This document shows positions 22,590 through 31,381 of a DNA stretch of 64,000 bases, in pieces. The notes beneath the pieces were generated by a model. The model was not told the origin of the DNA. It did no database searches and worked only from the letters and a program-made list of their open reading frames with translations. Each line of letters starts with the position of its first letter. Position 1 is the stretch's first letter. Origin of the DNA: Oscillatoriales cyanobacterium (GTDB lineage Bacteria > Cyanobacteriota > Cyanobacteriia > Cyanobacteriales > Laspinemataceae). The translations under genes were made by a program, and so were the position numbers. Location: NCBI GenBank assembly GCA_011390955.1, contig JAABRM010000014.1, forward strand, positions 62,001 through 126,000. Direction: 5' to 3'.

Positions 22590-22650
22590 AATTCACTTAT
22601 TTCTCATCGTAAGTTCACTTTAATTATAGCTTTTCTCTGCTGTATTCTAT

Positions 22651-22814
22651 GTCATTCCCGCGAATGCGGGAATCCAAAATTCTATGTCATTCCCGCGAAT
22701 GCGGGAATCCAAAATTATTCGGGTGGGCAAAAAAATTTACCTACCCTACCATATATGATGCTAGACTTTTGCCCACCCTGCAATACTATGTCATTCCCGC
22801 GAAGGCGGGAATCC
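22651..22814. repeat. REP-like hairpins (GTCATTCCCGCGAATGCGGG family)
   Basis: Three 25-bp copies at 22651-22675, 22686-22710 and 22790-22814, each with the inverted core ATTCCCGC / GCGGGAAT. A fourth copy is at 35567-35591. They resemble the REP sequences mobilised by REP-associated tyrosine transposases, though no such transposase is in the window. Confidence 0.9.
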
Positions 22815-22981
22815 AAAATTATTCGGGTGGGCAAAAAAAATTACCTACCCTAACATATATGATGCTAGACTTTTGCCCACCCTACAATACAAATAATTAG
22901 AATCTAAAATTATTCGGGTGGGCAAAAAAATTTACCTACCCTACCATATATGATGCTAGACTTTTGCCCACCCTACAATAC
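22714..22981. repeat. Three direct copies of a 73-bp repeat
   Basis: A unit starting ATTATTCGGGTGGGCAAAA and ending CCCACCCTACAATAC occurs at 22714-22786, 22818-22890 and 22909-22981. GGGTGGGCAAAA near its start and TTTTGCCCACCC near its end are inverted, so each unit is a hairpin element. The remaining spacer up to 23396 contains no feature I can support. Confidence 0.88.
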
Positions 22982-23396
22982 TACAATACTTGTCGGGGCG
23001 CCATCGGTGTGAGGGCGCCATGCTTGCGCTCCTACAACCACGATTTGTCCTTATAGAATTTATCCATAGAATTTGCTAACTTAATAGATTAATAGCATTT
23101 ATGTCACTTTTTATGAGAACATAGCTATGGATGGGTTTAGTCATTTGGATCCGGGAACTAACTGAAAAATCGAGTAAATCAACGCAAAATATAGGCTTTC
23201 ATCCAGTCAGACTTGCTAAAAGCCCGGTTTCTATGGTCTGTTTGCCAGTCAGCGGTAAGAATAGCCTCGATCCAATCGTTGAAATCTAGCTAAAAAATTT
23301 AGATTTGATTCCTGCTTGGTCAGGGTTCAGGGAAACAATGTTATACATCCAGATGCTTAACTAGAATTAACCGTCATACTTCTTCAGATATTAGTT

Positions 23397-25697
23397 ATGC
23401 TGAAACAAAATAGTTCTCCTCTAATGAGTGCTAAAGGCGATAGCGAAAGATTAGGCAACAGCAACACTTTATTAGAAACTTATCATATGTTTATTCCTTA
23501 TCAAACTGCTCGGTATGGGGGAAAGCAGATCGTTACTCTGCGATCGGGAGATGACTTATCGGTGAACATTCCCGCCAAAATCAAAGATGGCCAAGCGATG
23601 ACTATCAAGGGGCGTGGTTTAGAGGGTAAAGATATTACGCTTGTGTTGCATACCTTGTATGACAAAAGCATTGGAATCAAAGAAAAAATCTATCAAGAAA
23701 TTGAGAAAAATACCAAATTTATTCGCCCAGAATCAAGCCAAGAAAAATGTAAATTAGTCTATGAGCAAATTGAGGATGGTGAGTATGTTAGCGATCTGAG
23801 CGCTTTATATTTGTTGGATTATGCGATCGCTTCTTCTAAGCTGGACAGCAAGATTCAAGAACGCTATCAACTTGCTAGTACCAATTCGCGTTTAGTGGGG
23901 ATTCAGAAAACCATTGACTCTACCTTAGAAAACTTTACACTGAGTCCAGAAGAGAAGAAACTAATTCGAGCAACTTTTGCTTATGTGCGTGCGGATGAAC
24001 CTGTTCCTGACTTTAACGCTCTCACGGTTTTAGATGCAATTGTTGCTGGTTCAAACTTGCCATCAGAAATTAAGGGAACTTATCAGTTAGCCAGTGCTAC
24101 ATCAAGGGCTTTAACCGTCGATCTTATTTTAGTCAACGAGATTTCGCAAAGTCCAAAACTAACCGAAGAACAAAAAGCCAATTACCTGTCAATTTATCAG
24201 CAGGTACGCGACGGCAAGACGGTAGAAGATACAGAAACCTTAAAAGCCTTAAACTCATTGATCGCTCAAGCGGATATTCCAGATAATGCTAAAGCGGTTT
24301 ATGCGATCGCCAAGCAGAGTTTAGATAATCAAGAAGACTTCAAGCAAACAGTTCAGGTGCTTGTCCAGGAAGGTGAAAAGGTCAAAAACCAAGTGCAAAA
24401 CGCTGGAAAGATCGGAGGAGCGATCGTCCCGGTATCGGCAAATTTACTCAGTGCAGGTGGAGCGTCAGCAGGTACGGGTACTCTAATTAGCACATTATCT
24501 GGAGGGGCGGCGACCAATGCCACGTTAGCTGTTTTGGGTGGTGGTTCTGTGGCTGCCGGGGGTTTGGGAATGCTCGGTGGGTTAGCTGTAGCTACCGGAG
24601 GATCCGCCCTGATCGGAGCCGCCGGAATGCTGTCGATCGCATTAGTCTCAAAAATGGATGGTGAAGACCAAAAAAACCTGGGAATTGCGATCGGAACAGG
24701 AACAATTACTGGCGCTACAAGTGTTTTGGCCGCTTGGACTGCGGCGAGTGCTTTGGGAGTAGCCGGAACTTTATCCGGTGCTGCGGCAACTACTGCGACG
24801 ATCGCGGCTCTTGGTGGAATTACTGTTATTACTGGCGGTGCGGCAGCGGTGGCATCCGGTACAGCATTTTTAGTTTGGTCATTCCTCAAAAATGCCAAGA
24901 AACGGGATCAATCAGTGCTTTCCGAGGTAGAAACTCGAACCTACACCTATACGGAAGAAGAAATACCCGGTGATATCAAACAATTTCTGCAAAATCAGGT
25001 ACAGGGAAAATACAGCTTTACCAATGCTTTCTCTGCTCCTAATATTCCCTTGGATAAGCTCTCAAAGGCTTTAGAAAAATGGCTATCTATCAACAACGAT
25101 AAAGAAAAAGTTATTGCTTTGATAGATACCAGTGCTGGGTTTTATCAAGGAGGAATTGCGTTTGCTGATGACAGAATTATCTGGAACAATAACTCTATTA
25201 ATTACCAGGATTTAGCCACATTTGTCAAGACAGAAAAACAATTAGGTGTGCTGTTTGCTGACAAACAACAACAAGAAGAATTGTCTCAGTTGAGCCAGGT
25301 AATTGAGATTTTATCTGACGATAATTACAAAAGTAATTTACGCCAGATCCAAAAATTAGTCAAGATTACCGATGCTCAACCGAAGTTAGGCGATCTGGTT
25401 TCCGACCGAATCAACAAAGGTCAATTGTCTAAGCTAAAAGATGCTCTAGTTGTTTTAACTAACAATCAGTCAATTCAGAAATTCCCCCAATTAAAGAATG
25501 TCGTGGAACTATGGTCTAATAATCCTGATTTAGTCCGTTTTTTCCCGGAAAAATTAGTGTCACAGCTATCTGATGAGCAATTTAAGCAGGACTTATTCAA
25601 GATGGCAGATTTAGTCAAAATGTTAACCAATGAATCAGAGCAGGATAGTTTGACTAAATTACTCCGAGAACTGGGTCAACAATATTCCCCAGATTAA
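23397..25697 (+). CDS. DnaJ-C-like / helical repeat / glycine-zipper membrane protein, unknown function
   Basis: A 766-residue protein of unusual architecture. Residues about 25-90 resemble a DnaJ C-terminal beta domain (MFIPYQTARYGGKQIVTLRSG then VNIPAKIKDGQAMTIKGRG). Three helical repeats of about 65 residues follow near 100, 185 and 258, each with a central ...LDxAIAxSxLxSxIxxxYQLAS-like line. Residues about 345-500 are very rich in Gly, Ala and hydrophobics, like glycine-zipper membrane hairpins. Near 565 a segment KVIALIDTSAGFYQGGIAF recalls bacterial PH-like domains. The tail is helical. There is no signal peptide. Function is unknown; membrane insertion or pore formation is an inference. 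Confidence 0.8.
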   Translation: MLKQNSSPLMSAKGDSERLGNSNTLLETYHMFIPYQTARYGGKQIVTLRSGDDLSVNIPAKIKDGQAMTIKGRGLEGKDITLVLHTLYDKSIGIKEKIYQEIEKNTKFIRPESSQEKCKLVYEQIEDGEYVSDLSALYLLDYAIASSKLDSKIQERYQLASTNSRLVGIQKTIDSTLENFTLSPEEKKLIRATFAYVRADEPVPDFNALTVLDAIVAGSNLPSEIKGTYQLASATSRALTVDLILVNEISQSPKLTEEQKANYLSIYQQVRDGKTVEDTETLKALNSLIAQADIPDNAKAVYAIAKQSLDNQEDFKQTVQVLVQEGEKVKNQVQNAGKIGGAIVPVSANLLSAGGASAGTGTLISTLSGGAATNATLAVLGGGSVAAGGLGMLGGLAVATGGSALIGAAGMLSIALVSKMDGEDQKNLGIAIGTGTITGATSVLAAWTAASALGVAGTLSGAAATTATIAALGGITVITGGAAAVASGTAFLVWSFLKNAKKRDQSVLSEVETRTYTYTEEEIPGDIKQFLQNQVQGKYSFTNAFSAPNIPLDKLSKALEKWLSINNDKEKVIALIDTSAGFYQGGIAFADDRIIWNNNSINYQDLATFVKTEKQLGVLFADKQQQEELSQLSQVIEILSDDNYKSNLRQIQKLVKITDAQPKLGDLVSDRINKGQLSKLKDALVVLTNNQSIQKFPQLKNVVELWSNNPDLVRFFPEKLVSQLSDEQFKQDLFKMADLVKMLTNESEQDSLTKLLRELGQQYSPD

Positions 25698-25815
25698 GCA
25701 TCCATTAATTTCCATATTTAACAACAGAGGACACACAGGGAAATCTCTCTTTGTGTCCGGCAGAGTTCTGTGGTAAATTTTCTCGGTGACATTTCTCATC
25801 GTTTCCCGGTTCATC

Positions 25816-26056: not shown

Positions 26057-26833
26057 TTATTCTCCTCGCAAAAACCCTAAAAAATCGGCTACCACTGTTT
26101 CCGGTTGTTCATTACATAAACGGGCTGGGTAATGTCTCACTTTCTCAAACCCTTGACATTGAATCAAATTGACGATTTCCGCTTCATCCAGAGGATTGGG
26201 AATTTCCGGATCGTCAATTAAAAGAATGCCAGACTTACCTAGATCAAATATCAAAAAATCAAAAATGATGGTTTTTCTCCCTGCTGATGTGGTCAAGCGT
26301 AGGGGATAATTCGGGGAAAAGACAATTTTCTCCTTTTCCAGAGTTTCGGCGATTTTGACGGCGGCTTTTGACCCCATATGCAGCCCATTCCATTCATGGA
26401 TATTAGAAGAAATTTCGCGATTATTCGCTTTGTCGTTTATCTGTAAATCTGTTTGACATAAGTTAGAATTATGCAAATTTCCCACAACTGCATTACTTAC
26501 CTTAGATCCACTCAAATTAACTTCACTTACTTGAGGGCGATGTAAAATTACATGATGGTGCTTTAAATATCGTTTAATCACTGCCTGAAGATTCTCTTTT
26601 TTTACCTTTTCCCCAAATTTTTTAGAAAGCTTTTTCCACAGTTTAAACCCCACCGCTTTTAGGTAAGCTTCATCATAGTCGGTGACTTTTGCCATTTCCT
26701 GATAAGACTTGCCTTCCCAAGATTGACGAAACACGATTTCTTGCACTTCATTGAAGCGATCGTAGTCCATGACAAATTCAGCGATCGCCAATGCATCATC
26801 AGCGGTTAATGGTGACAGTCCTTCAAAAGTCAT
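26057..26833 (-). CDS. vWA-MoxR-associated-type HTH protein with uncharacterised C-terminal domain
   Basis: A 258-residue protein. The first 90 residues (LTADDALAIAEFVMD, QSWEGKSYQEMAKVTDYDEAYLKAVG, LWKKLSKKFGEKV) match the N-terminal HTH domain found in VMAP and NACHT/WD40 proteins of cyanobacterial conflict systems. The C-terminal 110 residues (SPNYPLRLTT, TIIFDFLIFDLGKSGILLIDD, VRHYPARLC) form an alpha/beta domain that is reminiscent of a PD-(D/E)XK-type nuclease but has no certain active site. A low-complexity linker joins them. It probably senses something and acts as an effector; that is inference. Confidence 0.7.
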   Translation of the reverse strand: MTFEGLSPLTADDALAIAEFVMDYDRFNEVQEIVFRQSWEGKSYQEMAKVTDYDEAYLKAVGFKLWKKLSKKFGEKVKKENLQAVIKRYLKHHHVILHRPQVSEVNLSGSKVSNAVVGNLHNSNLCQTDLQINDKANNREISSNIHEWNGLHMGSKAAVKIAETLEKEKIVFSPNYPLRLTTSAGRKTIIFDFLIFDLGKSGILLIDDPEIPNPLDEAEIVNLIQCQGFEKVRHYPARLCNEQPETVVADFLGFLRGE

Positions 26834-27546: not shown

Positions 27547-29022
27547 ATGCTAGAACTCTCACAAGTATTTGATGCTGGCTACTACTCTGCTAACAATCCC
27601 GACTTAGCCGCAGCGGGTTTACTCAATCCTGACCAACTATTTAACCACTTTACTCAGTTTGGGATTAATGAAGGTCGAGGATTTTCTCCTTATGTTGACT
27701 TAGATTTTTATCAGGCGGTTAATCCAGACTTAGGGGCAGCGGGCTTAACCGACAAAAGACAGTTACTCGACCATTTAATTAATGCTGGTATCAATGAAAA
27801 GCGTAGATTCTCTACTAATGTTAGTTTAAGCTTTTATGAAGCGGCAAATCCCGACTTACCTGCTGCTGGGTTAGATACGGGAGAGGAATTATTTGACCAT
27901 ATCATTAATTTTGGAGCCAAAGAAGGACGGCTGTTGGTTGAACCTTTAGTCCCACAACCATTACAACCCGGACCGTCTGACTTACCAGACTTACCAGACT
28001 TTCCAGAATTGCCCGACAACCCCACTCCACAGTCTATGAATATTGGTGGAGGCAATCTTTTATTAGGAGGTCAATCAAATAGCGGTCAAAGTATGCCGGA
28101 TCTGAATGTGGTTTTGGCTACTGGTTTACAAAGTGCCGTAAACCAACTGCAAGATTTTTTAACCGATGCTGATTTTGCCAATAAAATTACCACTGCCTTT
28201 GGGGAAGCAGCTAATCTCGATGCCGCCAAATCTTTAATTCAAGAATTGGCTAATGCCCAATCTCTGCCAACTATCAAAATGGCAAATCTTGACGAATTAG
28301 CCGGAAATCAGGGTGCCTTTGATGCGCTAACCAACACTGCTTATATTTCTCAAGAATTTCTCCTACAACACGCCAGTAATCCCGAAAATATTGCCAGTGT
28401 TCTGCTGGAAGAAATCGGCCATTCTATAGATTCTCGGATTAACGCCGTAGATGCTCCTGGGGATGAAGGAGCAATTTTCTCTCAACTGGTGCGCGGCAAC
28501 AATTTGAGTGCTGAAGACTTGTCAAAGTGGAAAACTGAAGATGATATGACTACTTTGACACTTGGCAATTCTAACATTTCCGTAGAATTAAGTAAGCAAT
28601 GGGGCTTATGGATTTACGACTTGAATAATTTCCAAGGATGGGGTAGTCCGATCGGATCAACCGTAGTCAATGGTGACGAAAATGGGATTAATCTTAATTG
28701 GGGATTGGGAGCCGCTGCCGGAGATTTGAGCGATAACTTTGTAGCTGTGGCAGGCGCATACGCTTATTTTGAAGCGGGAAGAATTTATGCATTTCGTGCC
28801 AACGCAGATGATGAGCTTTTTCTGACGGCTGAGTCTTACTATAACCCCAGTAATTATACCTGGATTACTCCTCAATGGGATGTTTTCGATCATCGCCGAG
28901 GACGATCTGCCGATCATTTTTATATTTTCACCCCACAAGAAACTGGTTGGCATACAGTTTATTCATATTTAACTGAGCGGTACGGCAATGCTTATATGGA
29001 TGTGAGTTGGTTTGTCCTTTAG
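27547..29022 (+). CDS. Repeat-containing probable surface protein with EExGHxID metalloprotease-like motif
   Basis: A 491-residue protein. Three N-terminal repeats of about 45 residues (YYSANNPDLAAAGL, then HFTQFGINEGRGFSP) are of a type seen in large cyanobacterial secreted proteins. A Pro-rich hinge near 135-170 (DLPDLPDFPELPDNPT) follows. Residues about 275-300 contain ASVLLEEIGHSID, a motif also found in giant cyanobacterial adhesins, where the EEIGH part resembles a zinc-protease HExxH in reverse. The C-terminal 140 residues form a beta-rich domain with aromatic ends. There is no classical signal peptide; type I-like export is possible. Function unknown. Confidence 0.72.
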   Translation: MLELSQVFDAGYYSANNPDLAAAGLLNPDQLFNHFTQFGINEGRGFSPYVDLDFYQAVNPDLGAAGLTDKRQLLDHLINAGINEKRRFSTNVSLSFYEAANPDLPAAGLDTGEELFDHIINFGAKEGRLLVEPLVPQPLQPGPSDLPDLPDFPELPDNPTPQSMNIGGGNLLLGGQSNSGQSMPDLNVVLATGLQSAVNQLQDFLTDADFANKITTAFGEAANLDAAKSLIQELANAQSLPTIKMANLDELAGNQGAFDALTNTAYISQEFLLQHASNPENIASVLLEEIGHSIDSRINAVDAPGDEGAIFSQLVRGNNLSAEDLSKWKTEDDMTTLTLGNSNISVELSKQWGLWIYDLNNFQGWGSPIGSTVVNGDENGINLNWGLGAAAGDLSDNFVAVAGAYAYFEAGRIYAFRANADDELFLTAESYYNPSNYTWITPQWDVFDHRRGRSADHFYIFTPQETGWHTVYSYLTERYGNAYMDVSWFVL

Positions 29023-30439: not shown

Positions 30440-30680
30440 TGTGGTAAAAAACCAAAACCCGGTTTATTTTATTGATAATATTCGTAGGTTGGGTCCACCG
30501 TCCACGAAACCCAACCTACGGACTAAAAACACAAAAAACACTTCTGGAAATCTCCCTTTGTGTCCGGCAGAGTTCTGTGGTAAATTTTCTCGGTGACATT
30601 TCTCATCGTTTCCCGGTTCATCCCTACCAGAAAAATAAGGCGCGATCGCACATTTCATAATCCCCCAGAACTGTTTTAGG
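30440..30680. repeat. Second copy of the composite dispersed repeat
   Basis: Two segments (30440-30524 and 30578-30680) match 29241-29325 and 29140-29241. The latter covers the end of the coding region 30624-31064. A CTCTGTGTCTCTGTGGT motif is included; this short motif also recurs near 29123, 29525, 41860, 42060 and 42460. Confidence 0.85.
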
Positions 30681-31064
30681 CAATAAATCACCAGTCCCTA
30701 AAACATCAATTGAATAGCCATCACGAATCAAAATTTTAAACAATTCTTGCTGACTCGCAACTAAAGTCGCTTCTAACTCTATCACTTGCCCATCTTCTCG
30801 TAAAAGCGCCAAGAGTTCTGAAACAGTAAGTTGTAAATTGCCCAGATTATTTCCCTGCTGAGTCAGGCGATCGCCCAACTCCCCGGTCGCGTCAATATCA
30901 GAAATCATCCAAGCATGAGGTGATTCTAACTTATGGGCTAAATATCTAACAATTGCGATCGCTCTTGACTCGATTGTTTCTAGAGAATCACAAAACAGTG
31001 TAACTGCCCATTTATGAGCAGTTTCCGGGGATAAACTTTGAATAAATTTATTTTCAACTTTCAT
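30624..31064 (-). CDS. Candidate immunity protein for the adjacent polymorphic-toxin-like domain
   Basis: A 146-residue acidic, mostly helical soluble protein (SLSPETAHKWAVTLFCDSLETIE, LTVSELLALLRED). Its start overlaps the stop of the toxin-like gene by 4 bases (ATGA), as expected for translational coupling of toxin and immunity genes. I recognise no family. The last residues, after LLPKTVLG, are encoded inside a dispersed repeat also found at 29190-29241, so the native C-terminus may have been replaced. The immunity role is inferred from position. Confidence 0.6.
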   Translation of the reverse strand: MKVENKFIQSLSPETAHKWAVTLFCDSLETIESRAIAIVRYLAHKLESPHAWMISDIDATGELGDRLTQQGNNLGNLQLTVSELLALLREDGQVIELEATLVASQQELFKILIRDGYSIDVLGTGDLLPKTVLGDYEMCDRALFFW

Positions 31065-31381
31065 AAATATTCTGGGTTTTTACTTCTAATAAGAGTGCCA
31101 CCAGTGGCATTTACAATCCACCGATGTTGATGCGGAGGTGGTATATGGTCGGGACGTAAATTGCCATTGGGATAAGTCGGACTGGTCAGATCGATATCTC
31201 TAACGGGTTGTCCAAACTCATCGAATTCTCGGAGTTGGTAAATTCGTTGATTTGTAGTATCCCATCTGATCTGAGAATGGGAACCGATAGCATTGGGATC
31301 GGGTTTAGGTTCTCCAAGTCTTAGGGGTCTTTGACTTTTTAGAACAACTGTACCATCGGCATATTTAGAATGGACTGACAA
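31061..31381 (-). CDS. Freestanding polymorphic toxin type 24-like domain
   Basis: A 106-residue protein that looks like the C-terminal toxic tip of a polymorphic toxin without its carrier: GSHSQIRWDT, REFDEFGQPVRDIDLT (residues 51-66) and HQHRWIVNATGGT (84-96). This pattern fits the polymorphic toxin type 24 domain as I remember it; the His-x-His-Arg-Trp and Asp-Ile-Asp residues are candidates for an active site. There is no signal, no pre-toxin region and no delivery gene nearby. It may be an orphan tip acquired by recombination or a solo intracellular toxin. Confidence 0.65.
   Translation of the reverse strand: MSVHSKYADGTVVLKSQRPLRLGEPKPDPNAIGSHSQIRWDTTNQRIYQLREFDEFGQPVRDIDLTSPTYPNGNLRPDHIPPPHQHRWIVNATGGTLIRSKNPEYL

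Follow-up and report, generated by a model that had tools for sequence, protein, structure and literature searches.

The gene described here, within a window of 64,000 nucleotides of cyanobacterial DNA (the whole stretch that was analysed), encodes a protein of an undescribed cyanobacterial family. The protein consists of a head of the Hsp40/DnaJ C-terminal domain (CTD) type, three helical repeats, a Gly/Ala-rich block, a conserved segment at residues 508-612 and a helical tail, in that order, and both the helical repeat and the whole protein fall outside the existing family models. The open reading frame at 23397-25697 is intact, has 766 residues and agrees in its coordinates with the earlier, sequence-only reading of this DNA (Table 1). 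That reading had known of no described protein with this order of parts, and the searches concur with it, as no full-length match was found in Pfam, NCBIfam or PDB, and no PDB chain spans the protein.

We put the probability at roughly 0.45 that the family consists of Tat-exported, membrane-tethered, chaperone-like envelope proteins which lack a J domain and which work by the following mechanism. The folded precursor would probably be sent via Tat to the periplasm (or the thylakoid lumen) and cut at an AxA site. The head and the three repeats would serve as a scaffold that binds proteins or oligomerises, and the Gly/Ala block, acting from the trans side, would insert into the membrane or oligomerise in it. 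In the window strain a deletion of 72 bp would have removed the signal and left the product in the cytoplasm, the copy being either relocated or in decay. Established directly were the repeats, the conservation of the Gly block, the fold of the head, and both the presence of a twin-arginine signal in the relatives and its absence from the window lineage; Tat use, membrane insertion, client binding and the envelope role are what we infer. More tentatively, the proteins could represent a new class, Tat-exported and J-less descendants of Hsp40 that enter the membrane from its trans side by means of a glycine zipper; at least one switch of location would then have come about by a clean deletion of the signal, which left a cytoplasmic twin. 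If this is right, the cyanobacterial envelope has taken over a substrate domain of Hsp40 without Hsp70, and this domain has been joined to a Gly module that recurs among candidate defence proteins. What location does can be tested directly on a natural pair, L007 with the signal and the copies of the window and of the congeneric genome SR001 without it.

Table 1. Features of the gene and its surroundings, with positions in the window.
Feature	Residues	Position	Strand	Basis
Unit 97% identical to the SR001 copy L003, which lies at a different genomic site		23051..25795	+	homology ends on both sides
Whole gene, start ATG, 766 aa		23397..25697	+	93-96% identity to congeners L003 and L007
Scar of the lost Tat-type signal		23421..23441	+	DNA alignment with L003 and L007, protein alignment
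DnaJ/Hsp40 C-terminal beta subdomain, without J domain	27-87	23475..23657	+	profile and fold searches
Helical repeat 1	111-183	23727..23945	+	repeat score, AlphaFold2
Helical repeat 2	184-253	23946..24155	+	repeat score, AlphaFold2
Helical repeat 3	254-315	24156..24341	+	repeat score, AlphaFold2
Gly/Ala-rich block, two related halves	334-500	24396..24896	+	composition, relatedness of the halves (z 5.4), conservation
Conserved segment earlier called PH-like, candidate fold only	508-612	24918..25232	+	ortholog alignment
C-terminal helical tail		25233..25694	+	AlphaFold2 model and ortholog comparison

Hsp40-type head, helical repeats and C-terminal part

The first domain had been read as DnaJ-C-like, and profile and structure searches alike recovered it as such. 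The NCBIfam DnaJ model matches residues 34-90 at 7.6e-5, the Pfam DnaJ_C match (0.0072, residues 26-76) lies below the cut-off, and a head profile made from 16 orthologs found the second CTD subdomain of DnaJ chains in PDB (4.8e-5). In some 20 cyanobacterial genomes the same profile also picks out ORFs of DnaJ size (3e-8 to 1e-6); of these stretches the one tested, L072, gives a Pfam DnaJ_C match of 1.9e-24. In the AlphaFold2 model, which was built on three sequences (the window and related loci) and is poor for the Gly block and the C-terminal part, the head is composed of E27-32, H35-40, E42-47, E53-58, E66-70 and E80-85 with pLDDT of about 78 over most of its length, and this predicted E-H-E-E-E-E order is that of the Hsp40 CTD. 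The best 15 Foldseek matches in PDB (E 0.007-0.09) are Hsp40 CTDs except for an entry of the radial-spoke complex at rank 9. The head matches the second CTD of DnaJ best, which is not clearly the main client site. No J domain (HPD, Hsp70 activation) was matched in Pfam or NCBIfam, and only 26 residues lie upstream of the head. The likeness to DnaJ/Hsp40 (PF01556; Ydj1 1XAO, DnaJ2 6PSI), by sequence and fold, is that of one beta subdomain with the same strand order, whereas the window protein has the substrate-domain fold as a single CTD subdomain without a J domain, is fused to repeats and Gly block, and has relatives that bear an export signal. Our literature search on DnaJ combined with a glycine zipper found nothing relevant.

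Residues 111-315 form three homologous units (z = 15.2, 9.0 and 7.1) with a score reached by none of 500 shuffles, and all three are modelled as helices, so the three helical repeats proposed earlier hold. No match for the repeat was found in Pfam or PDB, and judged by its sequence it is a new kind that is like nothing known. The repeat profile was detected in 13 of 386 sampled cyanobacterial genomes (3.4%), and as it was found exclusively in ORFs of the window protein's family, the repeat and the DnaJ-C head travel together in these predicted proteins.

The conserved segment was not confirmed as PH-like, with bPH_3 matching weakly in one of 16 orthologs (E 0.18) and the model of the segment having pLDDT 47. 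A stretch of about 100 residues in the C-terminal tail is missing from shorter orthologs (e.g., L004 and L013). Weak matches to Pfam Med15_M, Pfam DUF5693 and PDB laminin were treated as chance. The sequence-only reading could have failed on the lack of both a DnaJ-C fold and membrane segments, or on a family already assigned to another function; what we found is a real DnaJ-C fold, a real and conserved block of the glycine-zipper type and an architecture without a family model.

The Gly/Ala-rich block as a shared module

Residues 334-505 contain 42% Gly and Ala and 6% charged residues. No other part of the family is as conserved as the block, which has a mean column identity of 78% in the ortholog alignment, compared to 62% in the head, 57% in the repeats and 50% in the C-terminal segment. 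The composition and the two related halves uphold the glycine-zipper region of the sequence-only reading, while its membrane nature is likely, the hydropathy being modest (best 19-residue mean 1.74); pLDDT in the block is near 20.

The block is a shared module that recurs in other proteins. PADLOC PDC-M09A matches its first half at 7.8e-10, the matching part being residues 301-398 only. The module is found in the PDC-M09A proteins L097, L102 and L107 (1e-105 to 1e-108), the first two of which are adjoined by PDC-M09B, and in other cyanobacteria it also occurs in L103 and L105. In L103 (2716-3651) it is fused to an LRAT-like domain, and in L105 (1988-3343) to an unannotated N-terminal part. What the window protein has in common with PDC-M09A (PDLC04407) is the module LSGAAATNATLAxLGGGSxAAGGxGM; in PDC-M09A, which has about 280 aa and PDC-M09B as its partner, helix-like segments flank the module, whereas the window protein matches in the module only and has no such partner. 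We take PDC-M09A itself to be a predicted candidate defence system. No PDC-M09A was found in the window's genome at E 1e-12 and no PDC-M09B among the scanned neighbours, and a literature search on PDC-M09 and on the Gly motif returned nothing relevant.

Two other origins were considered and rejected. A likeness to Ifi-6-16/ISG12 was not borne out, as PF06140 gave no match in the window's genome at E <= 1. The bacterial dynamins LeoA and LeoBC resemble the window protein in a Gly-rich stretch, which in them is a membrane-contact paddle between helices (PMC4159319). However, no dynamin GTPase domain was matched in the window protein (Pfam, NCBIfam, PADLOC), and the Gly motif is absent from the inspected cyanobacterial LeoBC-type proteins.

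Export signal of the relatives and its loss

We found 25 cyanobacterial proteins with head, repeats and Gly block, and 21 of them, from two orders, have a twin-arginine (Tat-type) signal, assigned on the basis of motif, position and conservation. In 19 relatives of the same order RR-x-[FLA]-L stands at one aligned position, with a hydrophobic stretch and, in most cases, AxA after it, and two further orthologs, one of them from another order, share the same RR-type N-terminus. The N-terminal elements of a Tat substrate (RR, h-region, AxA) are thus present in 21 relatives, with AxA in most, and are absent from the window copy. In a quick tree the RR clade has 99% SH-aLRT support, and the window and SR001 copies are nested within it (the long branches of L024 and L026 were flagged). 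L024 and L026 do not have the signal, so signal-less forms occur elsewhere in the family as well.

Compared to L007, 72 bp (NRRDFLSYIALGTLGLLTKDLINP) are missing at about 23424/23425 in the window, and SR001 has the identical gap. The gap is exact and in frame and takes away both RR and h-region; in place of the cleavage motif SAQAD that follows, the window has SAKGD, i.e., the AxA site has decayed. The earlier statement that there is no signal peptide is consequently right for the window copy but not for the family. Because the signal is so widespread among the relatives, the window and SR001 copies are nested among its bearers and the gap is exact and in frame, the family is probably exported, and it appears to work outside the cytoplasm and not as a cytoplasmic phage sensor. 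In cyanobacteria, Tat-signal baits have been used to send a reporter to the periplasm (PMC12341915).

The window and SR001 copies agree against L007 at 36 sites, 31 of which fall in residues 10-100, and in its first 100 codons L007 is much more divergent from them than elsewhere in the gene. As the differences pile up there, the 5' end of L007 may have been exchanged with another copy. The genus has either lost the signal once or L007 has regained it, and in either case the family state is signal-bearing.

Gene copies, neighbours and alternative explanations

The family is patchily distributed (the 3.4% of sampled genomes given above) and polymorphic in its site within the genus, and decayed copies are present. 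There are three sites in the genus. At site A (methylase-Uma2) the window has a full copy and the congeners G001 and G002 a stop-containing remnant. These two have full copies at site B; there the window genome has a left flank (contig C9) from which the gene is not reached, and a right flank placed at a contig end laden with repeats. At site C they have a signal-bearing copy, and the window genome has none there. One paralog was found in the window's genome (L002, 570 aa, 36% identity over residues 19-314). In L002 and four similar proteins an amphipathic-looking N-terminal repeat replaces the signal and the Gly block is absent, as if these proteins contacted the membrane in another way. In L002 (1204-2913) a weak Apolipoprotein match falls in the N-terminal repeats, ahead of the shared head and repeats.

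The main rival of the envelope-protein reading is an exported, bacteriocin-like membrane effector, in which the head and the repeats would hold the Gly block in solution up to its insertion into a target membrane. Patchy presence, decayed copies, site polymorphism between congeners and the strong conservation of the Gly block would all suit such a protein, and for the Cdz proteins of Caulobacter it has been proposed that their Gly-zipper stretches enter target membranes (PMC5380434). The likeness to these, by description, is a hydrophobic Gly-rich stretch in an exported protein, but the Cdz proteins differ from the window protein in being 84-86 aa long, type I secreted and accompanied by an immunity gene of their own (PMC5380434). 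No immunity gene recurs beside the gene studied here, and the Gly block, the would-be toxic part, is what varies least. In polymorphic effectors the toxic part is usually the most variable. We regard an effector as unlikely. It is likewise doubtful that the window copy is only a mislocalised, decaying duplicate without a function of its own. Omega for the window/SR001 pair is 0.48 at dS 0.04 compared to 0.06-0.36 in other ortholog pairs, hinting at relaxed constraint in a rough, low-dS estimate; the remnant at the same site in two congeners and the loss of both signal and cleavage site point the same way. However, all 766 codons are open and omega is below 1; estimates at low dS are noisy, and similar values (0.44-0.49) come from pairs with the signal-bearing L004.

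The sequence-only reading had favoured a stress or defence protein that detects unfolded or phage protein and then enters the membrane; we considered it as a cytoplasmic stress or anti-phage protein acting on the inner membrane. In keeping with this, the copies in the window, SR001, L024 and L026 have no signal, and the Gly block is the module of the PADLOC candidate PDC-M09A, the only link to defence, but PDC-M09A is itself predicted. Cytoplasmic sensing is weakened because 21 relatives in two orders bear the signal and the window lineage, which sits within their clade, lacks it through the 72-bp deletion. The gene has no conserved defence neighbours either: no defence system recurs among the neighbours compared across lineages, and none of the conserved neighbours speaks for a defence island. 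We consider such a sensor quite improbable.

A conserved operon partner was also rejected, as Uma2 genes, kinases and ABC ATPases are all that recurs across lineages, and the other neighbours recur only among close relatives. The lack of such a partner, the modest hydropathy and low pLDDT of the Gly block, the signal-less L024 and L026 and the match of the head to the second CTD count against the envelope-protein reading. A non-exhaustive search beyond the cyanobacteria gave no viral and no plasmid relatives. Near the gene, a 258-aa ORF (26057-26833, minus strand) without Pfam or PADLOC match has a relative with 79% DNA identity that adjoins the signal-bearing copy of SR001 (L036), but there its arrangement with respect to the gene is reversed. 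Two overlapping ORFs of 146 and 106 aa (30624-31381, minus strand), also without Pfam or PADLOC match, resemble by eye an orphan toxin-tail and immunity pair. A 491-aa ORF without Pfam match (27547-29022, plus strand) begins with three FDAGYYSANNPDLAAAGL-like repeats. At 22649-22991 there are short repeated sequences with a translation like FPRMRESKI/CHSRECGNP, and their copies in related genomes are 81-84% identical.
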